Source: a virus. Taken from it: a stretch of DNA of 21,816 bases. The DNA is taken from positions 1 through 21,816 of IMG/VR virus record IMGVR_UViG_3300047483_000035, one strand, 5' to 3'. Below are positions 8,808-21,816 of the stretch, piece after piece (the first letter of the stretch is position 1; every line of letters starts with the position of its first letter). Under the pieces are notes generated by a model that was not told the DNA's origin, searched no databases, and was given only the letters and a program-made list of their open reading frames with translations. The translations under genes were made by a program, and so were the position numbers.

Positions 8808-9142
8808 TGAGTCACCTCACGACCACTGACGCGCATGTTGATGGCGCTGGCGGTTCCTGCAATTGTACTGATGAAGCTGCCGGGGTTCAAAACCTGCCCC
8901 ACCAACTCGGGGAACGTATACACCTCGGACGGCTGAAGCGTCTTGGTCTTGGTGATCAGGTTGTCGTTACCGGCAGACCCGGCAGTTGTGACCAAGTTGA
9001 CCGAGATCGTCGCAGCCACGGCGCTGTAATTGGTCGCCGTGAACTTGTCGATGATCGTGGTCACGTTGGTGGCCGTGTACTGGGTGGTCTGTGTGTCCTC
9101 GACCGTTTTGGCCGGGACGATGTTTTTGACGATGACTGTCAT
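8804..9142 (-). CDS. Small beta-rich virion-associated protein
   Basis: A 112-aa protein beginning MTVIVKNIVPAKTVEDTQTT. It is made of short beta strands (TTIIDKFTATN, AATISVNLVTTAG, EVYTFPELVGQVLNPG, AINMRVSGREV). I recall this sequence type as a conserved phage family that sits between the fiber and ejection genes; it has no known function. The strand pattern suggests an Ig-like or jelly-roll fold and so a minor virion component. The stop overlaps the GTG start of the cupin gene, and its own ATG overlaps the stop of the 80-aa gene by 4 bases. Confidence 0.65.
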   Translation of the reverse strand: MTVIVKNIVPAKTVEDTQTTQYTATNVTTIIDKFTATNYSAVAATISVNLVTTAGSAGNDNLITKTKTLQPSEVYTFPELVGQVLNPGSFISTIAGTASAINMRVSGREVTQ

Positions 9143-9381
9143 TCGGGTCTCTCCATTTGTTGAGCGTATGCGGTTATTTTCTCAGGTGTGTGGACTGCGG
9201 CGCAAATGTCTCGCACCATCTTGTCCTCAGAAGAAAAGTCTTGACCCGGTGCAATGCAGTGTCGGTGGTAAGTTTTTGAAAGTTCTACACCGTCTTCCAT
9301 GATGGCCGTTTTGGTGCGAACTTGAACTATGCCATTTTCGATCACTTCAATTTTGTCAACAAGCTGTATTTTCTCAAGCAC
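9139..9381 (-). CDS. Conserved small phage protein
   Basis: An 80-aa protein read from a GTG at 9381, with an AGGAG 6 bases before it in the transcript. The sequence (KIEVIENGIVQVRTKTAIME, then ELSKTYHRHCIAPGQDFSSE) is of a type I recall from many phage tail regions, often next to fiber genes, and it has no known function. The N-terminal half looks beta-rich and the C-terminal half helical (VRDICAAVHTPEKITAYAQQ). A fiber-assembly or attachment role is possible from position only. Confidence 0.62.
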   Translation of the reverse strand: MLEKIQLVDKIEVIENGIVQVRTKTAIMEDGVELSKTYHRHCIAPGQDFSSEDKMVRDICAAVHTPEKITAYAQQMERPE

Positions 9382-9398
9382 GATGCTCTCCTAATATG

Positions 9399-9418
9399 AC
9401 CCAAGAATCCACTTGGGT
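9399..9418 (-). other. Hairpin between the fiber gene and the 80-aa gene
   Basis: A perfect 7-bp inverted repeat (ACCCAAG, 6-base loop, CTTGGGT) in the 54-bp gap after the fiber gene. In the transcript it has no run of U after it and ends 10 bases before the AGGAG of the next gene. It is therefore more likely an mRNA-end or translation-control structure than a terminator. On the plus strand it is followed by four T, which would suit antisense transcription, but no gene ends there. Confidence 0.35.
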
Positions 9419-9435
9419 TTTGGTAACAAGTTTCA

Positions 9436-11523
9436 TTACGCTGCCACATAAAAAAACGTCAAAGACAAAAAGTTATTTGCTGCACCTGCACTCATATCGG
9501 CAACAACAGTGCCAGTGTTTGAAAATGTTTTTTGAATTTGGGCAGTGGTTGAGCTTGCCACCGTAACAATTCCTGACGGGTTGACTACCCAACTAACCGA
9601 AATTGCTGCTGGGGTCGCAGCATTTGACGCAGTGGCGCTAAAAGTTGTAAACGGCAAACCTGTTAACAACACAATACCGCTTCCTGTGCCGACAACAAAT
9701 GCGCTTGTTCTTAACCTGCACGTACAAAAAACAATGTCGCCAATTTTTCTGTAATAACCAGAGGCAAAACCATACGTGATTGTGGTGAACGCTCCCGTAG
9801 TTGGCGCATATCCCGGTGTCCAAGTGCCTTCCTCGTAATCGTCGAAAGTGTTTGGGTCTGTGCTGGCACTTTGTGCGGCCGGAAAGCTGACACCAGCACC
9901 AGAGGCCGAAGCTGTTGCACCACCAACTCCGATGGTGCTGGCAAAGGACGGGCGCGTAGCAAAGACCAAAGAGCCGCTGCCCGTTTCATCGGTAACGGCT
10001 GCGGCAAGGTTTGCGGAAGAAGGGGTGCCAAGCCAAGTTGCAACACCTGTTCCAAAAGATGTTATTCCGGTCCCGCCGTTTGCTACGGGCAAAGTGCCTG
10101 ATACGTGCGTTGTCAGGCCAATTTTTCCCCACGATGGGGCAACCCCAACGCCGCCAGAGATCAGAGCATTGCCTGTGGCAACATCTGCTAATTTTGCGAG
10201 TGTTGTCGTTGTGTCGGCATACAGCAGATCGCCCACGGCGTAAGAGTCAAACCCTGTACCACCTCGAGTTGCGGCAAGCTGTCCGGTCCAGCCGAGCGTC
10301 AACGATGCAGCAGCCAGCAGCGCAGTGGTTGGATTTCCACCAAGGGTCAACGTGACGTTGGTGTCGTCAGTCTTTGTCAGCGCCGCAGCCGAGACCCACT
10401 CAGGCGCAGTGGCCCCAGAGTTGACCCGAAACACTTGACCAGCAGTGCCGATGGCTCGGAATGTGGTGGTGCTTGGTGCAGACTGGTATGGCACCGAGCC
10501 TGCCGCACCGCCAGCAAGGTTTGTCGCTGTGCCAACAGGCAATGTCGATGATGGAACGTTTTCCCAGCGTTGCTGCACTAAGTCGTACTGGAGAATGTCG
10601 CCATTGGCAAGCCCGGTGATTTCGACGTTGGAGTCAGTCGCACCCAAAGCCGATCCGAAGGTAGGGCGCACAAATAGGATGCCATTGCTGGCCGCATGGA
10701 CCACAGACGCCACGATGACCTTGGGGTTCGGTGCTGTCGGGACGTTTTTGGTCAGCCCACCCGCCACTGCGGGGTCGTAGTACAGAATCTGCCCATCGAC
10801 CCACACTTCTGCGCCGCCAGTGGTGTTGACACCCTTGACCTCGCCAAACCATGTGACGTAACCCCAGCCGTTGTTGGCGATGTCTTGGGTGGCGACACCC
10901 ATGATGTACTCGCCTTGAAAGGCCGTCAAGCCGGTAGCCGGGGCACCACGCAGCCCACCAGAGGCACCCACGGTGCCGGTGAACATGACCACCTGACCTT
11001 CGGTGATGGCTGCGCTGGCCTTGACCCGGTAGTAGGTTTCCTCACCGATGTGCTGGATCACCTCACCGCTGTCCTCCATGACGATGTTGAGCGTTTTGAT
11101 CGCGTCAGCATCGTCCCAATACAGTGTGCCATTGGCAAAAGGACCAGTTGGATAGCCTTCAGGTGCCGTGTCGAACTGCAGCCACGGCACGTTGTCCTGC
11201 TGAAGCTGGCTCATGGTGCCCAACTCAGGACGCACTTGCATTTCCAGCCCATTAACCTGCTTTTGCAACTCGGCCAATTGTGCCAGTAACCCGTCTTGCG
11301 ATGGGTCAAGAGCCGCGCTTGCCTTGTCGATAAGGGCGTTGATTTCGTCAACCGTCAGGGTCGGTGGACCTTTTTGCAAGTCGCCCAGCGACACATCGCT
11401 GCCACCAGTCAGTTGACTGAGCGACAGCAGGAACAGATACCACGGCGTTGAGACAAAGCCTGTCTCCGGGTTCAAGAAAGGAACCCTTGGTTGCGTGATT
11501 GGAACGATACTTGGATTAGGCAT
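9436..11523 (-). CDS. Tail fiber protein (tail-needle position)
   Basis: A 695-aa protein. The N-terminus (NPSIVPITQPRVPFLNPETG, then FVSTPWYLFLLSLSQLTGG) is a short virion-attachment segment, followed by a helical, probably trimeric coiled coil (about residues 75-97, LLAQLAELQKQVNGLEMQV). The middle has repeated low-complexity fiber sequence (ATRGGTGFDSYAVGDLLYAD, VANGGTGITSFGTG), and the C-terminal domain from about residue 557 (FDDYEEGTWTPGYAP...SGYYRKIGD) is a known type of phage fiber head. It lies directly after the gp10-like gene with an 8-base overlap, where P22 has the tail needle gp26. The likely role is host binding and perhaps closing the tail. No good ribosome-binding site is visible, so it may be coupled to the gene before it. 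Confidence 0.8.
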   Translation of the reverse strand: MPNPSIVPITQPRVPFLNPETGFVSTPWYLFLLSLSQLTGGSDVSLGDLQKGPPTLTVDEINALIDKASAALDPSQDGLLAQLAELQKQVNGLEMQVRPELGTMSQLQQDNVPWLQFDTAPEGYPTGPFANGTLYWDDADAIKTLNIVMEDSGEVIQHIGEETYYRVKASAAITEGQVVMFTGTVGASGGLRGAPATGLTAFQGEYIMGVATQDIANNGWGYVTWFGEVKGVNTTGGAEVWVDGQILYYDPAVAGGLTKNVPTAPNPKVIVASVVHAASNGILFVRPTFGSALGATDSNVEITGLANGDILQYDLVQQRWENVPSSTLPVGTATNLAGGAAGSVPYQSAPSTTTFRAIGTAGQVFRVNSGATAPEWVSAAALTKTDDTNVTLTLGGNPTTALLAAASLTLGWTGQLAATRGGTGFDSYAVGDLLYADTTTTLAKLADVATGNALISGGVGVAPSWGKIGLTTHVSGTLPVANGGTGITSFGTGVATWLGTPSSANLAAAVTDETGSGSLVFATRPSFASTIGVGGATASASGAGVSFPAAQSASTDPNTFDDYEEGTWTPGYAPTTGAFTTITYGFASGYYRKIGDIVFCTCRLRTSAFVVGTGSGIVLLTGLPFTTFSATASNAATPAAISVSWVVNPSGIVTVASSTTAQIQKTFSNTGTVVADMSAGAANNFLSLTFFYVAA

Positions 11524-12946: not shown

Positions 12947-13656
12947 CAGAAGTTACCGGCGTAGATGTTGAACCGCTGACGATTCGCCACCACAGCGTAG
13001 GGCAGGCTCATCACATCGTATGGGTTGTTGATGCGTTTCAAGTTGCGCTTGCTGGTCATGGCGATGCGCTGCACCTGTGGGCTTGGCTCCACGCCGAACT
13101 CGGGTGCAATCTCCATCGCCAAGTTGTAGGCAAAAGCCCGCATGTAACCCGGTGGGAAGAACAGTTCAGTGCTGAGTAGCGCAGGCTGCGTCAACTCTTG
13201 CACCGAGATGAAGTGCCACTCCAAGACCTGTGTGGGCCGTGGGTAGATGTACATCTCCACATCAGGGAAGGTGTTGTTGACGAAGATGACCTGCGGGAAG
13301 GTCGATGTCGATGTCTTGACAGCGATGCCGTTGTACTGGTCTTGGTTGATGAACTTGATGCCATACGACACGCCGCTTGGGGCTTTGTAGTAGGTGCCGT
13401 CATCGAGTTGAATGGGGCGGTTGCCCACAAAGTCACCAGACGGACCAAGAGTTCGCTTGATCTCACCAGAGGGCCACGAGAAGATTTGGTCTTGGGTGCA
13501 GAACACGGACAGACGTTCCGTGTTCCAGCTATCGACCATTTGTTGAAGCGCCACCAACGCATCTTGCGATGTGGCGGCAGAAGGTGTTTCACCCTCAGCA
13601 AGAATGCCAAGCAGACGAAGTGCTCGATTTATTTGGTCGCCCGCAGTCGTACTCAT
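12946..13656 (-). CDS. Tail accessory factor / head-completion protein, P22 gp4-like
   Basis: A 236-aa protein (P22 gp4 is 166 aa). The N-terminal helices (GDQINRALRLLGILAEGETP, ALVALQQMVDSWNTERLSV) are the recognisable mark of this family, followed by FCTQDQIFSW, a beta-rich middle and a helical end (FAYNLAMEIAPEFGVEPSPQ, AMTSKRNLKRINNP). It would bind the portal after packaging and extend the channel for the gp10-like protein. Its ATG overlaps the stop of the homing endonuclease gene by 4 bases. P22 gp4 also has muralytic activity; nothing here by eye shows that this one does. Confidence 0.87.
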   Translation of the reverse strand: MSTTAGDQINRALRLLGILAEGETPSAATSQDALVALQQMVDSWNTERLSVFCTQDQIFSWPSGEIKRTLGPSGDFVGNRPIQLDDGTYYKAPSGVSYGIKFINQDQYNGIAVKTSTSTFPQVIFVNNTFPDVEMYIYPRPTQVLEWHFISVQELTQPALLSTELFFPPGYMRAFAYNLAMEIAPEFGVEPSPQVQRIAMTSKRNLKRINNPYDVMSLPYAVVANRQRFNIYAGNF

Positions 13657-14162
13657 TTGGTCACCCTTTGTTTAGCGGATATTGACATTTTAAGCCTTGA
13701 TTCGGCTGACGGGCGAATTCCAACATGAGACGCGCTAATCTTGGCGCGAACCTCGGGAGGGCGGGGTCTACCCTTGAGTGCCGCTGCCTTTTTCGCAATC
13801 GTCTCAGGACTTTGCTTTCGACCGAGTTGTGCCTTGCGCATGTTGTCGCGGGCCTGCTGTGAGCGTTTCACACCCAAACAAGAGTCAGCAATTTTGCGCT
13901 TGTTGTAAGCAGGTTGAAAAAAGTCAATCCAGAATTGCTCGTGCTTGATCAATTCTTCTTTGTCTTCGACAAATTGCACAACCTCCCAGTCAAACGCATC
14001 TGGACCGTACTTGCGGTAGGCGTTTTGCAAATGCTCACAGTGATGTTTACCTTTGCGGAGATTGCACAAGTGAGCATTCCACCTGCGATTTACAGCAACG
14101 GCTGAACCAACGTACATATCGCGTGTGACGTTGTTTACTATTGCGTAGATCGCAGAAGCCAT
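13653..14162 (-). CDS. GIY-YIG homing endonuclease with four NUMOD3 repeats
   Basis: A 169-aa free-standing endonuclease. The GIY-YIG domain covers about residues 1-88: AIYAIVNNVTRDMYVGSA (the YAI and YVG motifs), the catalytic-type Arg in VNRRWNAHL (R26/R27), EHLQNAYRKYGPDAF, and the metal-binding-type Glu in KHEQFWIDFFQPAYN (E75). The C-terminal half has four DNA-binding NUMOD3 repeats, with the glycines of GVKRS, GRKQS, GRPRP and GIRPS at residues 97, 114, 131 and 148, an exact 17-residue period. AAGGA lies before the ATG. It would cut homologous genomes that lack it, favouring its own spread. It sits between two virion genes with 1 base to the previous stop, and is not part of virion assembly. 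Confidence 0.92.
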   Translation of the reverse strand: MASAIYAIVNNVTRDMYVGSAVAVNRRWNAHLCNLRKGKHHCEHLQNAYRKYGPDAFDWEVVQFVEDKEELIKHEQFWIDFFQPAYNKRKIADSCLGVKRSQQARDNMRKAQLGRKQSPETIAKKAAALKGRPRPPEVRAKISASHVGIRPSAESRLKMSISAKQRVTK

Positions 14163-14929: not shown

Positions 14930-16129
14930 TTAGCCCCAGATGCGGCAACCCATTTGTGGACGAATCGTGTTGTAGCCATACAGCACGTCAACACGGCAAG
15001 GCATACGGTCGTTGTTGATGTCGTACTGACGAACAACGCGCAGGCTAATACCGTTGTGAACGGCACGGCTAGCCATGTCAACGCCTTGTGGCAGCAACAG
15101 GTCAGCAGTGGCGAACGCGATGGCGTCACGGTGGTACACCATGTTCTGTGGGTAGCTGGTCGAAGCAGCACCAACGAACACGACAGCCTTGCCAGTGGCA
15201 GGCAGGGACACCATAGTGCACAGGGCGTTACCAGCCGAGTACATAGGAGCCACGGTCACAGTAGCTGTGGTGGTGGTTGTCGAAGACGACAAGGCCACGA
15301 ACTGGAACAGCGAACCGGTGGACTCACGAGTCTGTGGGTTGGCAGCGTAGCAGTCAGCGATAGTGAACACGTCACCAGCGTTGATGATTTCGCCGGAACC
15401 GACAGTCAGAGTCAGAGTGGTTGCGCCTTCGGAGGTCACAGCAGCGCCGGTTGTGTTGCCAGTGGCAGCACGGGTACCGCAGGTGTGAACCTTGATCGAC
15501 TGGCTCATGTTGACTTCTTCGTAGCCCAACACTTGCTCACCCATCATGCCGTTCTTGAACTGGCGAGAGATGACGTCTGTGGGGTTGAAGAAACCAGACA
15601 AGCCGTTGACCAATGCGGCGTTGGCGGCAGGGTTCACGGTAGCGTAACGAGGCGACATGGTGGCGGCGTTCTCGTTCAGCTTCTGCTGGGCTTGCAACAG
15701 CACCAGAGCAGTCGATGGGGCAGAGCCGGGAGTACCGACGCTGTTACCGATCAGCTTGTATGCGTTGGCAACGTCAGCATCCACAGTGGAGGCCAACTGG
15801 CTGATACGTGGCTTCAAGACACGCTCTGCGAAGTCGTCCAACTGCATGGTCAATTCAGCGGATGTGAAGTTGATGCCGATGTGCTTCTGGCTGGAGACAG
15901 TCAGAGTGGTGAACTGTTCGTTGTCGTCCTGAACTTGCAGGGCGGCACCGTCAGTGACCAGAGCGCGGTCGGGCAAACGGATACGCAGTGTGGAACCGAT
16001 CTTGGCACCTTCAACAGCGAAGCTGTCGTCGTACTGGCGGTTCACGTTGCGGGTGATCACCAAGTTGTTCTCAAGAATTTCGAGAGACTTGCGGGTGATC
16101 ATGTCAATGGTTAAGAGCGAGTTACTCAT
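14930..16129 (-). CDS. Major capsid protein, P22 coat-like
   Basis: A 399-aa protein (P22 coat is 430 aa). The N-terminal part (MITRKSLEILENNLVITRNV, then NRQYDDSF and AKIGSTLRIRLPD) and the segment HIGINFTSAELTMQLDDFAE are recognisable from the P22 coat family with the HK97 fold. The middle (SRQFKNGMMGEQVLGYEEVN) followed by Ala/Thr-rich strands probably corresponds to the inserted domain. The C-terminus (RVVRQYDINNDRMPCRVDVL, YGYNTIRPQMGCRIWG) is characteristic. It forms the icosahedral shell with help from the scaffold upstream. UAGGAAAU precedes the ATG and the gene lies 14 bases after the scaffold stop. A UUCG hairpin follows it. Confidence 0.93.
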   Translation of the reverse strand: MSNSLLTIDMITRKSLEILENNLVITRNVNRQYDDSFAVEGAKIGSTLRIRLPDRALVTDGAALQVQDDNEQFTTLTVSSQKHIGINFTSAELTMQLDDFAERVLKPRISQLASTVDADVANAYKLIGNSVGTPGSAPSTALVLLQAQQKLNENAATMSPRYATVNPAANAALVNGLSGFFNPTDVISRQFKNGMMGEQVLGYEEVNMSQSIKVHTCGTRAATGNTTGAAVTSEGATTLTLTVGSGEIINAGDVFTIADCYAANPQTRESTGSLFQFVALSSSTTTTTATVTVAPMYSAGNALCTMVSLPATGKAVVFVGAASTSYPQNMVYHRDAIAFATADLLLPQGVDMASRAVHNGISLRVVRQYDINNDRMPCRVDVLYGYNTIRPQMGCRIWG

Positions 16130-16143
16130 GATGATTTCCTAAA

Positions 16144-16941
16144 TTAGCGGTTGCGAAGTGCCCGTGCCTTGTCGAGTTGTCGTTGACGCTCGGCAGCAAT
16201 CCAGTCCGATGTGCTCATGGTCTTGACAGACCGAGGATCGGTGGTGTCAGTGACACCGGGGTTTACTGCTCGTGCAGTCACCGGACGAATCGGGTCAGGT
16301 GCGGACGAAGTTTTCTTTTGGAAAGGCTCGGCAGTTATCTTAGCCTCAATCTTCCCGATTTCTCGCGCTTGCAACAGTGGCGACAGACGAGAGATGCGAT
16401 CAGCTTCTTTAGGGTTGCTGCCCAGCCAGTAGGCCAGATCAGGACCAATGTCGGAACTTTTGATTGTCTCGGCCATCACATCGGTGACTCGGAGATTCGG
16501 GTTGTAGGCGACTTGTTCAAAGTCGTCGTACTTGTTCCGAACTTCTTCTTCACGTTCTGCGTAGCTGTCCTCAATCGCTGCTTTTTGCTTCTGGAGTTCA
16601 CGCTGGTGGAGCATCTCCTCGGCCCGTTTGACTGCCAGTGCTTCCGCATAGGCTTCAGGGGACTCAAATTGATCCACAGGCGGGAGTTCCTTGGGCACCG
16701 ACTGCCGCACTTGCATCTCTGCTTGTTTGGCTTGCTGCTCACGTTCCCATTTGCGCTGTTCTCTTGCGAGGCGCTTGCCGATCATCGAATCGAGTTCAGC
16801 TTGAGAGAATTTCTTCTCCTCAGGTGTCTCGTTACTCTGGTCAGCGACTTCCGGCAGATTTTGTGCATTGTCCGAGGTGGCCGTCACTTCGGGTGCTGGC
16901 GCGGAGTCTACTTCCGCTAGGTTTTGGACTTCATCAGTCAT
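16144..16941 (-). CDS. Capsid scaffolding protein
   Basis: A 265-aa, highly charged and helical protein immediately before the coat gene, the usual position (P22 scaffold is 303 aa). The N-terminus is acidic and disordered (TDEVQNLAEVDSAPAPEVTA). The centre is a long coiled coil (SQAELDSMIGKRLAREQRKW, EREQQAKQAEMQ, AEEMLHQRELQKQKAAIEDS). The end is basic (STSDWIAAERQRQLDKARAL), like the coat-binding helix-turn-helix of P22 scaffold. It directs coat assembly and leaves or is lost on packaging. A promoter and a small inverted repeat lie upstream, and the ribosome-binding site is weak. Confidence 0.83.
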   Translation of the reverse strand: MTDEVQNLAEVDSAPAPEVTATSDNAQNLPEVADQSNETPEEKKFSQAELDSMIGKRLAREQRKWEREQQAKQAEMQVRQSVPKELPPVDQFESPEAYAEALAVKRAEEMLHQRELQKQKAAIEDSYAEREEEVRNKYDDFEQVAYNPNLRVTDVMAETIKSSDIGPDLAYWLGSNPKEADRISRLSPLLQAREIGKIEAKITAEPFQKKTSSAPDPIRPVTARAVNPGVTDTTDPRSVKTMSTSDWIAAERQRQLDKARALRNR

Positions 16942-16945
16942 TTGT

Positions 16946-16959
16946 AACTCATGTGAGTT
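16946..16959 (-). promoter_or_regulatory. Inverted repeat in the scaffold leader
   Basis: A 14-base inverted repeat (AACTCA-CA-TGAGTT in the transcript) ends 5 bases before the scaffold ATG. It could fold as a 5-bp stem with an ACAU loop and would hide the only Shine-Dalgarno-like bases (GAG). That would be a way to limit scaffold translation or to bind a regulator. It is short, so chance is possible. Confidence 0.4.
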
Positions 16960-16992
16960 CTCGGTCTACTGGGCCGATACAGTTGTGCCGCT

Positions 16993-17021
16993 ATTATGCG
17001 GCAGATTCTTAAAATTGTGAA
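16993..17021 (-). promoter_or_regulatory. Sigma70-type promoter for the scaffold-coat operon
   Basis: On the minus strand, TTCACA (17016-17021, 5 of 6 matches to TTGACA), a 17-base spacer, and CATAAT (16993-16998, 5 of 6 to TATAAT) fall in the 109-bp gap upstream of the scaffold. The start of transcription would be near 16986, about 45 bases before the scaffold ATG. The -10 lies in the loop of a small hairpin (stem 16986-16991 with 16998-17003). This is the best promoter match I found in the late region. Confidence 0.6.
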
Positions 17022-17050
17022 CCAAGTGCTATTTCTGCTTGAATCAATTA

Positions 17051-17272
17051 TCAGCAGTCGGTTGCTTGCGCGTACTGCGGCAAAGATTTCAAATGCGCGT
17101 AGGCTTGTGCGTCCCAACGATTGTCGCCCTCGGGCTTGAACACAAATCCTTTTTCGCTGACGATCTTTTCTGCGGCTGAGTTTTCATAGCCACGCAGAAC
17201 AAACACCAGTTGGTTTTTGCCGCCGCCGAGGTTTTCCACTCGGCAGTATTGGTTGTTGATTTCAAGAGCCAT
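17051..17272 (-). CDS. Small conserved phage protein between tailspike and scaffold
   Basis: A 73-aa protein starting MALEINNQYCRVENLGGGKN, with AAAGGAAAUC before the ATG. A strand-rich first half (QLVFVLRGYENS) is followed by GFVFKPEGDNRWDAQAYAHL. I recall similar small proteins from phages, with no assigned function. It lies 11 bases after the tailspike stop and before the scaffold promoter, so it ends the transcript coming from the portal side. Confidence 0.6.
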   Translation of the reverse strand: MALEINNQYCRVENLGGGKNQLVFVLRGYENSAAEKIVSEKGFVFKPEGDNRWDAQAYAHLKSLPQYAQATDC

Positions 17273-17283
17273 TTTGATTTCCT

Positions 17284-19683
17284 TTAATTTAGTTCGCCGT
17301 AATTTCCATCATTGCGCAATTGCTCGTACTTGTATGTAAACCGGGTGCTTGCCAAATTGATTGCACCAGCAGTCGGGTTATACAACTGAACAATAGACGC
17401 ATCCGACTGAGGTTGCACACTCATGATTAAGCCATTCAAATACCTGCTTGGAAAAACGCTTACGGACGCACCTATGGCTATTGCAGTTGGTTGCGGGATA
17501 TAAAACTCATACGTTGCGCCAGCAGCAATGCTTGGCAGATCGTATGTGACAGAATTTTCAAACAGATTTGAAACGCTGCCGCATGTTAGGACCGCCGAGC
17601 CTTCCAAGTCATACAACACGCCCACACCAGACAATGCGTTGCCACGATAGCTTATTTCTGTGTCAGAAACCGCGCAGATGCCACGGATCGCAATACCGGA
17701 AGCCGACGGATTGCGTATAAAGTTGTTGCTGATTTGACCAGTTGGGGCTACTGCGCTTCCACTCAGCGTTTCAGTTCGGATACCCGCGCCGCGATCATCC
17801 GAGGGGATAGACAAGTTCGCACCACTCCACGAAATAACGCTACTCGATTCGCTGACTGTCCAACTTGTTGACAGCATTCGTGTTGGGTAACGATAGGTCA
17901 CCACAAAGGCAGTGCCGTCATTGCTGAACGATGTGAATTGCAGCAATCCGTTTGGCATCACCGATGCTGTGCCCGTATCCCTTGCGGTAACAAGAATGTT
18001 TTGCAAGTTGGTGATGGTGTCGGCTTGACTTGCACCAATCAACACATTAATTGCGGTGTTGCTGTTGATGGCGCTTGGAGTTGCGACAAACGTGCAAACA
18101 ACACCGTTCAGCGTAATTGTGTCTGCCGCTGTGGGGTTGCCGCTAAATGTTGCAGTTGCAGCGGGGAACGATGCTGCATTGAATGGCTCAATCTCCCAAA
18201 TTGAATTGCTATCCACCAAAGAATTTGCACACGAAAACAGCATGATTGCATTTGAGCCGGATTCGCTGATGCTGTTTCCAGACACCACAAGGGCGTTTAT
18301 CAGAATTCCTTCAATTGCACCAAGCGATTCAGTCGAGTTTTTGCCGCCGCAATACGTCAATGTGTTGCCGCTGATAACAACACCATCGCCCGTATCACCG
18401 CCGACACCAACATCTCCGTCGGCCACGATTCCATAACTCATGCCATCACGCGATGGGTAAATCAAGGGGTCATTTTCAATCGTGTTCCCAGTTACAGCGC
18501 AACGTCTAGCGCCCGCATCTTGCGCAGTTGTAGCGCCACCTACGTAGGAGACAAGCGCAATACCAGCTCGACAATTACGAACAGTATTTCCAACAACCGA
18601 AATGTTGTAACCGCCGTGCGTATCAATACCTTCCCATGTTTTGACGTTGTAAACGTAGTTGCCAGTTACGGTAACGTCATGGGACAACGGACGACCAACG
18701 GTGTTACCGTTGCTGTTGCATGTGATTGCAATGCCGTAGGCGTTATCGAAAGAGCCAACAACACCGGTGGGGTGAATGTCGCCAATCCTGTTATTGGAAA
18801 TCACGCCTTGGTTACTTGATAGCGCTTGAACACCAGCGTAGCCAATGTTTGAAATGTCGCAGTTTGTGACATAGAAGTTTTGACACATTCTAAAAATCAC
18901 ACTCTCGCCTTGCCAATCGACAATGGTAGCGTCTTGAATGCCTACGTTTTCGATGTAGGTCGGTGGTGTTACTGAGTCGTTTTCGACGCCGTAAAACGTA
19001 ATTCCGTAATCCCCGCTGTTTGTGGTTGGCGCAACTTCTTTCCATGTGCCACCCAAGATTTTTACATTGCTGGCCGTAATACTGATTGCGTCATTGTTTT
19101 GCCCACCGCTTCGCGTTCCGTTGAAGCGCACGGTTGCACCATACGCCGAAATGGTCATTGCTTTGTTGATGACCAAACGCGATCCGCAATAGAAGGTATA
19201 CCCAGCGTTAAAAATCAAAGTGCCGCCAGTTGGGCAGGCATCAATGGCTTTTTGAATGTTCACGGTGTCGTCGGTGCTGTTGTTGCCAACCGCACCAAAG
19301 TCCAGCACCGTGAACAGTTGACGCATTTTGTCTTGTGCATTTTGCTCAACAGCGCCGGTTCCCGCTTGAACAAACACCAAGTTCTCTAAATCAAACGGGC
19401 TGCGTATATTGTCATACGTGCGAATCAACACGCTGGCCGATGTGCTAACCGTAAACTTGTAGTTTAGTAACGGGTCAGTCCAGATTTGTTCCGGTGGCCT
19501 TCCAGCAGAATCCAACACAATCGGATTCGTGTTTTGCGTGCTTCCCGTAGATGATGTGTATGTTGGTGTCGGTGTTGTAGTTCCGGCCAAATACACATGA
19601 ACTAAACCACCAGACAATGGATTGCCATTGTTGTCTAAAAATTGCCAGCCTGCGCCAGCAAACAAGGAAAGAGCCACTGTCAT
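17284..19683 (-). CDS. Tailspike with pectate-lyase fold (receptor-binding depolymerase)
   Basis: A 799-aa protein from the ATG at 19683, which has AAGGA 8 bases before it; the ATG at 19692 lies directly against AAGG and is less likely. The N-terminus is a virion-binding domain (residues about 5-92, AGWQFLDNNGNPLSGGLVHV, then VLDSAGRPPEQIWTDPLLNY). Next comes the pectate-lyase entry motif VLDFGAVGNNSTDDTVNIQK (126-145) and a long right-handed beta-helix of the NosD kind with repeated GN/SGN turns (VVGNTVRN, VTGNTIEN, ISGNTLT, VSGNSISE). An inserted domain (509-622) interrupts the helix and the fold resumes at about 625-670. It probably degrades a surface polysaccharide; its catalytic residues cannot be assigned by eye. 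Base composition is more AT-rich than that of the head genes. Confidence 0.85.
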   Translation of the reverse strand: MTVALSLFAGAGWQFLDNNGNPLSGGLVHVYLAGTTTPTPTYTSSTGSTQNTNPIVLDSAGRPPEQIWTDPLLNYKFTVSTSASVLIRTYDNIRSPFDLENLVFVQAGTGAVEQNAQDKMRQLFTVLDFGAVGNNSTDDTVNIQKAIDACPTGGTLIFNAGYTFYCGSRLVINKAMTISAYGATVRFNGTRSGGQNNDAISITASNVKILGGTWKEVAPTTNSGDYGITFYGVENDSVTPPTYIENVGIQDATIVDWQGESVIFRMCQNFYVTNCDISNIGYAGVQALSSNQGVISNNRIGDIHPTGVVGSFDNAYGIAITCNSNGNTVGRPLSHDVTVTGNYVYNVKTWEGIDTHGGYNISVVGNTVRNCRAGIALVSYVGGATTAQDAGARRCAVTGNTIENDPLIYPSRDGMSYGIVADGDVGVGGDTGDGVVISGNTLTYCGGKNSTESLGAIEGILINALVVSGNSISESGSNAIMLFSCANSLVDSNSIWEIEPFNAASFPAATATFSGNPTAADTITLNGVVCTFVATPSAINSNTAINVLIGASQADTITNLQNILVTARDTGTASVMPNGLLQFTSFSNDGTAFVVTYRYPTRMLSTSWTVSESSSVISWSGANLSIPSDDRGAGIRTETLSGSAVAPTGQISNNFIRNPSASGIAIRGICAVSDTEISYRGNALSGVGVLYDLEGSAVLTCGSVSNLFENSVTYDLPSIAAGATYEFYIPQPTAIAIGASVSVFPSRYLNGLIMSVQPQSDASIVQLYNPTAGAINLASTRFTYKYEQLRNDGNYGELN
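17818..18159 (-). other. Domain inserted in the tailspike beta-helix
   Basis: Residues about 509-622 of the tailspike. They do not follow the turn pattern of the helix before and after. They read ATFSGNPTAADTITLNGVVC, TFVATPSAINSNTAINVLIG and ASQADTITNLQNILVTARDT, then a set of strands. I recall this SGNPTAADTITLNGVVxTF type as a repeat-like module present in unrelated phage virion proteins, so it is probably a mobile carbohydrate-binding or stabilising module. Confidence 0.6.
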
Positions 19684-19694
19684 GATGTGCATCC

Positions 19695-19964
19695 TTATTC
19701 GTATGCAATGGTGCAGGACACGGTGCCCGAAATCACAACATACAAACCTTTGTTGGTGTACATACCATCAAAAAAATTGTAATTGGTGCCCGCCACAGGC
19801 GTAAACGTGTCGAGAACTTTGGGGTCAGTGTTGTCCGAATCCGGGGAATCGTAGACTGTGATTGTCGGAGTGCTGGATGCAGCACTGACAAACACACCCT
19901 TCAGCTTCGCAGCCATCGGTTTGATTTGAGTGCTTGCGCTGATCTGTGCGTAATTAGATGACAT
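19695..19964 (-). CDS. Small virion-associated protein, 89 aa
   Basis: An 89-aa beta-rich protein (NYAQISASTQIKPMAAKLKG, VFVSAASSTPTITVYDSPDS, FFDGMYTNKGLYVVISGTVS, CTIAYE). I recall proteins of this sort (a LKGVFV strand, a TITVYDS strand, a GLYVVISG strand) from phage head and fiber regions, where they are assumed to be minor structural components. A TAAGGATG arrangement couples its stop to the tailspike start region. Function not established. Confidence 0.63.
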   Translation of the reverse strand: MSSNYAQISASTQIKPMAAKLKGVFVSAASSTPTITVYDSPDSDNTDPKVLDTFTPVAGTNYNFFDGMYTNKGLYVVISGTVSCTIAYE

Positions 19965-19973
19965 GATGGCTCC

Positions 19974-20336
19974 TTATGCCAGAAATTTTAACTTGTAGAT
20001 TGCGGACAAGTAAACAGCAATGATCTCGTCAATGATGTTCTGCAAGGTGGTATCGGTCTTGCCGCAGACTTTGTACCGGTTTTCCTCAATGTAGGCCAGC
20101 GAGTCCTCCAAAAACGGCAAAATTGCACCGTCCTTGCGGGCTGACTTGAGCGAGATGGGGCCAATTAGACCATGACGGCCTTGGTACGCCTCGGCAAACT
20201 TGTCGGCAGCGTCCAGAATGTCTTCGTAGAAGTGCCGCAGCGCCTTGTGCTTCGAGTAGGACCGGGTGTTGAGGTGGACGGAATGGGCCACATCCCGCGC
20301 CAAGAACAACTCACCAATGAAATCAGCGCAACTCAT
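19974..20336 (-). CDS. Helical phage protein, DUF5856-like
   Basis: A 120-aa all-helical protein whose ATG overlaps the portal stop by one base (TAATG). The sequence (FIGELFLARDVAHSVHLNTR, ALRHFYEDILDAADKFAEAY, QGRHGLIGPI, TLQNIIDEIIAVYLSAIYKL) is of the type I recall as DUF5856, found in many phages and without established function. Its conserved His and Glu residues in helices (H18, H21, H35, E38) recall ferritin-like bundles, but I cannot show metal binding. Its place beside the portal suggests a role in virion assembly or late infection. Confidence 0.68.
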   Translation of the reverse strand: MSCADFIGELFLARDVAHSVHLNTRSYSKHKALRHFYEDILDAADKFAEAYQGRHGLIGPISLKSARKDGAILPFLEDSLAYIEENRYKVCGKTDTTLQNIIDEIIAVYLSAIYKLKFLA

Positions 20337-21816
20337 TACATCATCCCTTCAGGTGGCATTTGACCCTGCGGCTGCTCCATCGGCATCTCAGGCTGCATCG
20401 GCATCTCAGGCATCTGCGGTGCGCCTGCAACCAGATCGCCAGTGTCCATCGCTGCGGCAATGGTGCCCATCACGATGTCCTGAATCTGCTCGGGCGACAT
20501 GCCAGCCTGCACCGCGCTGATGCGCTGTGTCTCGGCAGAGTATGCCTTGATGTCAGCCTCAAACTGCTTGATCTGCATCTCGCGGGCTTCCATGCTCTGG
20601 TTGACGTTTTGCAACATCTGGAACATGTTCTCCATCTCAGCGGCCATTGCTTCCATCTGCTGGTTGGCAGCGGCCAAAGCTGGATCGTCTTCGTCGGCCA
20701 GCACTTTGGGGTCGATGGTCTTCTTGAACCGCTTGGCGAGGTCTTGGGCACCGGGCCAGTCCATGTTCTTGACGAACAGGTCGCCAGCCACTTGCCACAA
20801 CTGTGGGTTGCCTTGCAGCAACTGGGCCATGCTCTCCAAGGCTTCCTGACGCTTGGTAGCGTAGCCGGGACCGGTGATCACGCGCACATCGTACTTGCCA
20901 ACGCCGGGGTTGTAGACCTTCTCGATAAGGTTGCCCTCTTGGTCCACGATCCGCTTGACAGGTTCTTCCTGCATTGGGTTCATCTTGACGGTATCTGGCT
21001 CACCGTCTTCGCCAATGATGCGGGCGATGCGCTCGGTGTCGTAAATCTTGGGGATCAGGTCCACGAGTTGACGGCCAATGTGACGGATCGCACGGGCCAA
21101 GTTGTCAACGTAGTGGTAGGTGCCGATGTCGCCTTCGCGCTGGCGGGCCAAGATGGCCTTGCCAGAACGCTCGTTGCTGGTCATGCCCAGCGATGCGTTG
21201 TACTGACCTGTGGCCGACTTGATGTCCTCGGCAGCACCCGCCTTGGCTTGCAGGAGGCCGCTGGAGGCCATCGGAGGCTGTGCCCGCTGGGGTAGTGGCA
21301 ACACAGCGCCTTGACCGTCTGTAACGTCAGGGTTGACCTCCAGATAGGGCCAGTTGTTCGTGTTGGCAGTTTTCCACTGCTGCTCGTAGCCTTCAAACTG
21401 ACCGCCGTAGCCGATGAAAGGGGCTTTGGGGGCCAGCGCCAGCATCTCAGCTTCCTGCGACACCCAGTAGTTGTACATGCGCTGGGCATCTTTGGCGTTG
21501 CGCACCAAGCCCGACACGTACATGCGGCCATCGACCTCGAACTCGTTGCCAACCACGCGCACCACGGGGATGTAGGCACCAGCCCACTCGCGTTCTTCAA
21601 GGATGTCGTAGCCGTTGATCTTGCACCACTTGACCTTTTTGCGGTCAGCTTCGCGGGTGCGCAGGGGCTTGCCGAACATCATGCGCAGGGTCTTGTCCTC
21701 GGGCGTACCGCTGAACGCAGTCTGGTTGCCGGGGTAAAGGTTGAGCGTGTGCTTCTCGTACTCGATGTAGAAGTATTCGGCGATACGGATGGTGTTCTCA
21801 CCAATCCACTGGGCAA
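20336..21816 (-). CDS. Portal protein, P22-like, C-terminal part (5' end outside window)
   Basis: The reading frame is open through the right edge (codons from 21814), so the start of the gene is missing; an ATG at 21682 is internal. The first visible residues (AQWIGENTIRIAEYFYIEYE, then KHTLNLYPG) and further segments (REWAGAYIPVVRVVGNEFEV, AKDAQRMYNYWVSQEAEMLA, PKAPFIGYGGQFEGYEQQWK, TNNWPYLEVNPD, MTSNERSGKAILARQREGDI, ARAIRHIGRQLVDLIPKIYD) are recognisable as P22-type portal. The visible part is 493 aa; P22 portal is 725 aa. It forms the dodecameric ring for DNA packaging and ejection. The C-terminus holds a coiled coil and a Met/Pro/Gln-rich tail (MPEMPMQPEMPMEQPQGQMP). Confidence 0.93.
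   Translation of the reverse strand, partial: AQWIGENTIRIAEYFYIEYEKHTLNLYPGNQTAFSGTPEDKTLRMMFGKPLRTREADRKKVKWCKINGYDILEEREWAGAYIPVVRVVGNEFEVDGRMYVSGLVRNAKDAQRMYNYWVSQEAEMLALAPKAPFIGYGGQFEGYEQQWKTANTNNWPYLEVNPDVTDGQGAVLPLPQRAQPPMASSGLLQAKAGAAEDIKSATGQYNASLGMTSNERSGKAILARQREGDIGTYHYVDNLARAIRHIGRQLVDLIPKIYDTERIARIIGEDGEPDTVKMNPMQEEPVKRIVDQEGNLIEKVYNPGVGKYDVRVITGPGYATKRQEALESMAQLLQGNPQLWQVAGDLFVKNMDWPGAQDLAKRFKKTIDPKVLADEDDPALAAANQQMEAMAAEMENMFQMLQNVNQSMEAREMQIKQFEADIKAYSAETQRISAVQAGMSPEQIQDIVMGTIAAAMDTGDLVAGAPQMPEMPMQPEMPMEQPQGQMPPEGMM

Follow-up and report, generated by a model that had tools for sequence, protein, structure and literature searches.

A probable exchangeable tailspike module at the portal–scaffold border of a P22-type podovirus

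The window analyzed here is an IMG/VR virus record of 21,816 bases, and its numbering is used throughout. The genes considered are read on the minus strand in the order of portal, 120-aa gene, 89-aa gene, tailspike, 73-aa gene, scaffold and coat (Table 1), and 3′ of coat follow P22-type connector, tail and injection genes. The first-pass annotation had put a tailspike between portal and scaffold, and this placement and its coordinates were right; the 120-aa and 73-aa genes were absent from its account. The spike frame opens either at the ATG at 19692, giving 802 codons, or at a second ATG at 19683, giving 799 aa. The second appears the likelier start, as the aligned spikes of relatives begin there.

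Table 1. Features of the window, with positions in window numbering
Feature	Positions	Strand	Evidence or remark
Portal, P22-type (5′ end outside window)	20336..21816	-	PF16510, 394 bits; PHROG 156
120-aa DUF5856 gene, bounding slot A on the 5′ side in most relatives	19974..20336	-	PF19174
89-aa predicted jelly-roll protein gene, backbone, just before insert	19695..19964	-	AlphaFold2 pLDDT 92
Tailspike, 802 codons	17284..19692	-	PF13229; profile matches to solved tailspikes
Spike anchor, predicted head-binding domain, residues 1-107	19372..19692	-	profile match to 7eeq
Exchanged unit: spike body and 73-aa gene	17050..19368	-	97.3% nt in L178/G050
73-aa gene	17051..17272	-	PHROG 18037, function not assigned by PHROG
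Sigma70-like promoter candidate TTCACA-N17-CATAAT, 3′ end of insert	16993..17021	-	position conserved in relatives
Two-hairpin (tandem) scaffold leader, bounding slot A on the 3′ side	16942..16985	-	conserved in relatives
Scaffold gene	16144..16941	-	PHROG 8865, E 2.9e-31
Coat gene, P22-type	14930..16129	-	PF11651, 130 bits
GIY-YIG homing-type endonuclease	13653-14162		between 85-aa gene and gp4
Slot-B tail protein, 695 aa; N-terminus conserved, C-terminal half variable	9436..11523	-	

The spike consists of an N-terminal anchor and a large body. A profile of 29 anchors matched two solved structures, 7eeq ('Tailspike head-binding domain', E 7.8e-18), which we take to be that of phage Pam1, and 9vyg ('Tail spike protein', E 7.5e-15), and no Pfam model matched the anchor. 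The body matched Beta_helix PF13229 with 47.1 bits against a cut-off of 25.9, and its profile matched solved beta-helix enzymes and tailspikes, for example 2vbe and 7sg7. The pectate-lyase fold proposed before is thus upheld as a right-handed beta-helix. AlphaFold2 modeled the body with a mean pLDDT of 56, confident only in parts.

By likeness to 7eeq, the residues ~1–107 would dock the spike on the tail hub. The beta-helix body of residues ~109–802 would bind, and may also cut, a host surface polysaccharide.

All the sequences being metagenomic contigs, one may ask if a spike was misjoined into the head genes during assembly. However, the arrangement is the same in three contigs, of which one belongs to a clearly different phage, other spikes occupy the same place in many relatives, and a prophage in an isolate genome (L255) has the identical gene order. 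One contig (L005) reproduces the arrangement at 99.95% over 13.67 kb. Another (L006) carries the same block in a different phage: its identity to the window is 99.6% up to position 14156 and falls to 89.8% beyond, which rules it out as the same virus. An assembly artefact is hardly conceivable, being refuted in substance by the independent contigs.

We compared the portal/scaffold border, here slot A, across the DSL-LC05 clade (proposed 'Luchaoviridae'). The locus counts are a sample, and the figures on loci hold among the matches listed. For slot states, 91 distinct scaffold proteins were counted, leaving out 22 loci with neither portal nor 120-aa gene upstream and 12 with a partial scaffold. 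Among these matches, slot A had a spike in 46 and lacked it in 45. There was a spike but no 89-aa gene in 40, an 89-aa gene but no spike in 36, the two together in 6 and neither in 9, and the tree of the 91 scaffolds requires at least 23 changes of state.

With both genes in only 6 of the 91, the window's slot type is therefore the rarest, yet recurrent. The two genes also share the slot in L180, L229, L232–L236, L238, L239 and the prophage L255, so the window virus is alone in having both only among its close relatives.

The closest comparisons show different contents between conserved flanks. Phage DSL-LC05 (L001, OR003940.1) matches the window at 96.1% nt over 21814–19993 and 16983–14156 with no match between, and its slot A holds a cassette encoding 254, 100, ~50, 170 (anchor), 205, 483 (tailspike), 97 and 81–85 aa. 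In the contig L012, which has no spike, the match ends with the 89-aa stop codon (19695) and starts again at 16985, and 17 bases stand where the window has 2.7 kb. Its identities to the window are 94% in the portal, 97% in the 120-aa, 90% in the 89-aa and 98% in the scaffold protein. L012 and L185, both short contigs, are the A-empty ones with scaffolds 98–100% identical to the window's.

In the slot-filled relatives, nucleotide similarity to the window ends at 19962–19993, in the 120-aa/89-aa region. Similarity to relatives resumes at 16982–16985, the start of the ~44-nt scaffold leader. By synteny among relatives sharing the portal and scaffold, the module is variable, and a single spike of matched composition is not common to all of them.

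The spike had also been considered out of place for a P22-type genome. This is valid for the isolates P26218 (Rhodoferax phage), VvAW1 (Vibrio phage) and X14 (Shewanella phage), as their scaffold directly follows the portal. Within the clade, in contrast, slot A is a common spike address, used at 46 of the 91 scaffolds among the matches listed.

The 89-aa gene had been counted in the tailspike module, but the relatives and its codon use place it in the head-side backbone. Among the matches listed, 28 loci have a relative of it with at least 78% identity, and in 25 of these the scaffold follows after 65 or 69 bp with no spike between. Of the other three, two are contigs from the window virus or from its sibling, and the third lacks a scaffold within reach. 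Its codon distance to the backbone, 0.48, is inside the null of same-length chunks (maximum 0.63). Since the gene lies that close to the scaffold in the nearest relatives and the L012 match runs to its stop, the insert begins after it.

The predicted jelly-roll of the 89-aa protein had the HFTV1 turret as its top Foldseek match (E 1.9e-3), with none at 0.001 or better, and in a second comparison its best match was the nucleoplasmin core (Z 8.2, rmsd 2.7 over 81 residues). Judged from the model, these likenesses would be those of the common jelly-roll arrangement and show no function. Neither the 73-aa nor the 89-aa protein had a convincing relative among solved structures, and NCBIfam had no family for the six proteins searched. 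The 89-aa protein is a possible candidate for a virion surface protein. Some relatives have two tandem copies of its gene, and others have the gene directly before slot-D spikes.

Compositionally, the spike has GC of 46–49% and GC3 of 50%, compared with 59% and 78% in the portal and 57% and 69% in the coat. Its codon distance to the backbone is 0.55 in the body and 0.86 in the anchor, and the maxima of same-length backbone chunks are 0.22 and 0.58, respectively. The insert had been called more AT-rich than portal and coat, which is correct for the spike in GC, GC3 and codon distance but does not extend to the 89-aa gene with its codon use inside the null.

Among the matches listed, all 63 slot-A anchor genes have GC below that of their own backbone (mean 49.1 versus 56.3). 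The same is found at slot D in 6/6, at B in 1/3 and at C in 3/5, again among the matches listed. Because low GC is general to the slot-A spike genes, it says little in favor of a recent gain. It would mark a shared pool of such genes more than a recent arrival.

Could the arrangement instead be old? The order portal-120-89-spike-scaffold might be ancestral, the compact relatives having lost or moved the spike and the window lineage having replaced only the spike body. The same order occurs in the distant prophage L255 (portal 64%), in L233–L239 and in L180, so the window may have kept an old arrangement that was lost where the slot is empty, and the tree of slot states fits gain and loss alike. 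Yet slot A is empty in all other close relatives that have the 89-aa gene and a reachable scaffold (25/25 among the matches listed), and the anchor and the body are both codon outliers. We regard an ancestral resident spike as possible but somewhat doubtful.

Exchange is seen directly in a scan with the spike residues 120–802. It listed five loci, namely L178, L179, L180 and two that belong to the window virus or its sibling. L178 is in record G050 (39,068 bp), a distant podovirus whose gp10 is 23% identical to the window's and in which the window scaffold found no match. The G050 spike gene follows a 790-aa injection-type gene, precedes lysis-type genes and has a different N-terminal domain. 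Window positions 19368–17050, which begin at spike residue 109 and end shortly beyond the 73-aa gene, match it at 97.3% over 2,319 bp.

The borders of this match are sharp. In 100-bp bins, crossing the anchor/body linker takes the identity from ~50% to 96%, and past the 73-aa stop it is down to 43%. Between the two bodies, 37 codons differ synonymously and 13 non-synonymously, most of them within the first 200. The body is a codon outlier in the window genome and in G050, so neither need be the donor. In L179 and L180, a slot-A body ~75–80% like the window's is joined to anchors 57–59% alike.

A near-identical body on another anchor in an unrelated phage points to an exchangeable host-recognition module, and the window and G050 show the modular pattern of one body common to distant groups on different anchors. 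This one 97%-identical case shows the body and the 73-aa gene swapped between phages through recombination at the linker after the anchor. The first-pass annotation had suggested a host-range module gained by exchange; a variable receptor-binding module with its body at 97% nt in a distant phage is what we find, but the low GC tells little of how recently it came.

The 73-aa protein is 98.6% identical in L178 and 86% in L180, encoded directly after the body in each. From this co-transfer, and by comparison with the fibre and chaperone pairs of Alteromonas phages, we guess that it is a candidate assembly or folding helper, with its gene linked to the spike.

The anchor has four addresses in the clade. 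They are A at portal/scaffold, B after gp10 and a 695-aa-type protein but before a 112-aa gene, C after the injection genes and D after the coat. Address C contains a 225–244 aa anchor protein and small fibre-like genes, and P26218 also uses C. When the anchor residues 1–107 were sought in 72 distinct records, 49 had one match each and 23, including many short fragments, had none. Each genome keeps one such anchor, and related phages have it at A, B, C or D.

Among the matches listed, 60 coat proteins are divided into 40 at A, 8 at C, 7 at B and 5 at D, and the coat tree needs 16 address changes. Its starred branches alone force at least six changes for A, at least six for C and at least five for B. 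Even identical coats differ in address, L018 and L019 having A and L021 having B, and in the window's own coat clade all 15 rows with known address are A. The A and D rows share one anchor sequence type, the C rows have the other and B has both. With four addresses, the receptor-binding gene of this clade does not stay within one conserved gene order.

The addresses could also differ because large structural blocks recombine around a static spike module. These phages are indeed mosaic: a shared portal goes with a different scaffold in 10 of 73 near pairs, a shared coat with a different scaffold in 15 of 64, and the identity of L006 steps down beyond 14156. This is countered by slot content that switches while its immediate flanks stay at 94–98% (L012, L001) and by G050, which shares only the body and the 73-aa gene. 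Replacement of whole blocks is therefore unlikely as the explanation.

Neither are the flanks of slot A a visible hotspot of recombination. Among 38 genomes, the portal/scaffold distance correlation is 0.89 versus 0.81 for the scaffold/coat control, so the flanks are no more discordant than the control.

The 3′ border of slot A has its own signals. A sigma70-like site recurs upstream of the leader with varying letters, such as TTGACA/CATAAT in L007 and TGCACA/TAAGAT in L001. Its promoter-like score averages 8.11 versus 6.50 in dinucleotide shuffles and is higher in 74 of 86 leaders, and the −10 element ends 4 or 6 nt before a conserved ACYKTA core in 57 of the 86. The rows scored are related, and 17 of 103 distinct leaders lacking the core were left out. 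A plain scan of the window found 4 promoter-like sites versus 3.6 expected, with no excess. Owing to the related rows and this lack of excess, the promoter-like signal is suggestive only.

These features are suggestive of a scaffold-coat unit that starts from its own promoter, in which case an insert upstream would cost little. The module itself may be transcribed together with the portal, as the first-pass annotation had suggested. Slot A is probably tolerant of inserts because this unit would have its own promoter and leader directly downstream.

The leader also appears structured. Stem 1 of the leader (16942–16985) pairs in all of the 62 distinct leaders with covariation CCGG/CCGG, CTGG/CCAG and TCGG/CCGA. 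Stem 2 has 5/5 pairs in 60 of the 62, while dealing the 3′ halves among the leaders gives a mean of 29 and a maximum of 37. The 3′ arm of stem 2 holds purines, a possible site of ribosome binding, and no match to the leader was found in Rfam. The two-hairpin leader is a candidate control element for scaffold translation. Autoregulation of scaffold is a known phenomenon in P22.

Taken together, the insert is very probably an exchangeable tailspike receptor-binding module of a P22-type podovirus at the border of the portal-side and scaffold-coat genes, in a clade with one anchor per genome and four addresses. More tentatively, and with considerable reserve, the tailspike may be an itinerant single-copy module for host range that lands at four borders of transcription units in genomes nearly identical elsewhere. 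Given one docking place on the virion for the anchor, a newcomer would replace or supersede the old spike wherever it lands, and its landing in slot A would be allowed by the scaffold-coat unit's own promoter and leader.

The P22 tailspike gene sits after the ejection genes, which corresponds to slot C. The window resembles P22 and Lederbergvirus in having a head-binding domain joined to a beta-helix body and P22-type head genes, and differs in having the spike between portal and scaffold.

Exchange between anchors and bodies is already established (PMC10408124; PMC6872550, as far as their accessible text goes). Pas et al. (2023) describe the receptor-binding protein as generally the most variable gene in a conserved gene order, with Lederberg- and Uetakeviruses excepted (accessible text of PMC10408124). 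Unlike these modular tailspikes, the window clade shifts the address itself among near-identical backbones, a change that a limited literature search, including portions of PMC10975493, did not find. The swapping is well known and the shifting address is the newer part.

The Alteromonas phages A5, V22 and P24 have bench-tested modules of fibre and chaperone common to distantly related phages (PMC10579305, text available in part). There as here, distantly related phages have in common a receptor-binding gene along with the small gene behind it. The 73-aa helper is, in contrast, guessed from co-transfer, and the identity here is far higher at 97% nt.

DSL-LC05 (PMC10611076, accessible part) is alike in its portal, scaffold and coat at 96% nt and in its spike genes in slot A. 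It differs in that the anchor is a separate 170-aa protein, followed by 205- and 483-aa proteins, and the 89-aa gene is lacking. The words 'tailspike', 'tail spike' and 'pectate lyase' do not occur in the accessible text of PMC10611076, and the predicted hosts of DSL-LC05 are Enterobacterales. The portal relatives at 64–83% are on beta-, gamma- and alphaproteobacterial genome contigs, mostly metagenome bins.

In these abundant freshwater phages, gene position is no guide to the receptor-binding gene, as the spike can be at four places. A clean natural pair for locating the sites to cut and join spikes is provided by the body that two unrelated anchors share at 97% identity. The compact and filled slots A with near-identical flanks allow for a test of host-range gene exchange sparing head-gene expression.

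A split tailspike is found in slot A of L001, L007, L019 and others, where an anchor protein of ~167 aa is followed by proteins of ~170–220 and ~430–580 aa. In the window, the C-terminal half of the 695-aa protein and an 80-aa gene (9139–10500) are codon outliers. Relatives of this tip and 80-aa gene pair lie in slot A of L180 (L180:8919–9615), between the spike and scaffold, so pieces also move between slots.

The prophage-like region of the Rhizorhabdus histidinilytica UM2 genome (L255, NZ_FUYM01000001.1) has the order portal-120-91-spike-scaffold. Its identities to the window are 64% in the portal, 61% in the 120-aa protein, 39% in the 91-aa relative and 51% in the scaffold, and its 674-aa spike has an anchor 53% identical to the window's. 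This prophage is a possible cultured handle for the clade.

The GIY-YIG endonuclease of the window is absent from DSL-LC05 and from the sibling L006. The drop in L006 identity from 99.6% to 89.8% falls exactly across the site of this endonuclease.
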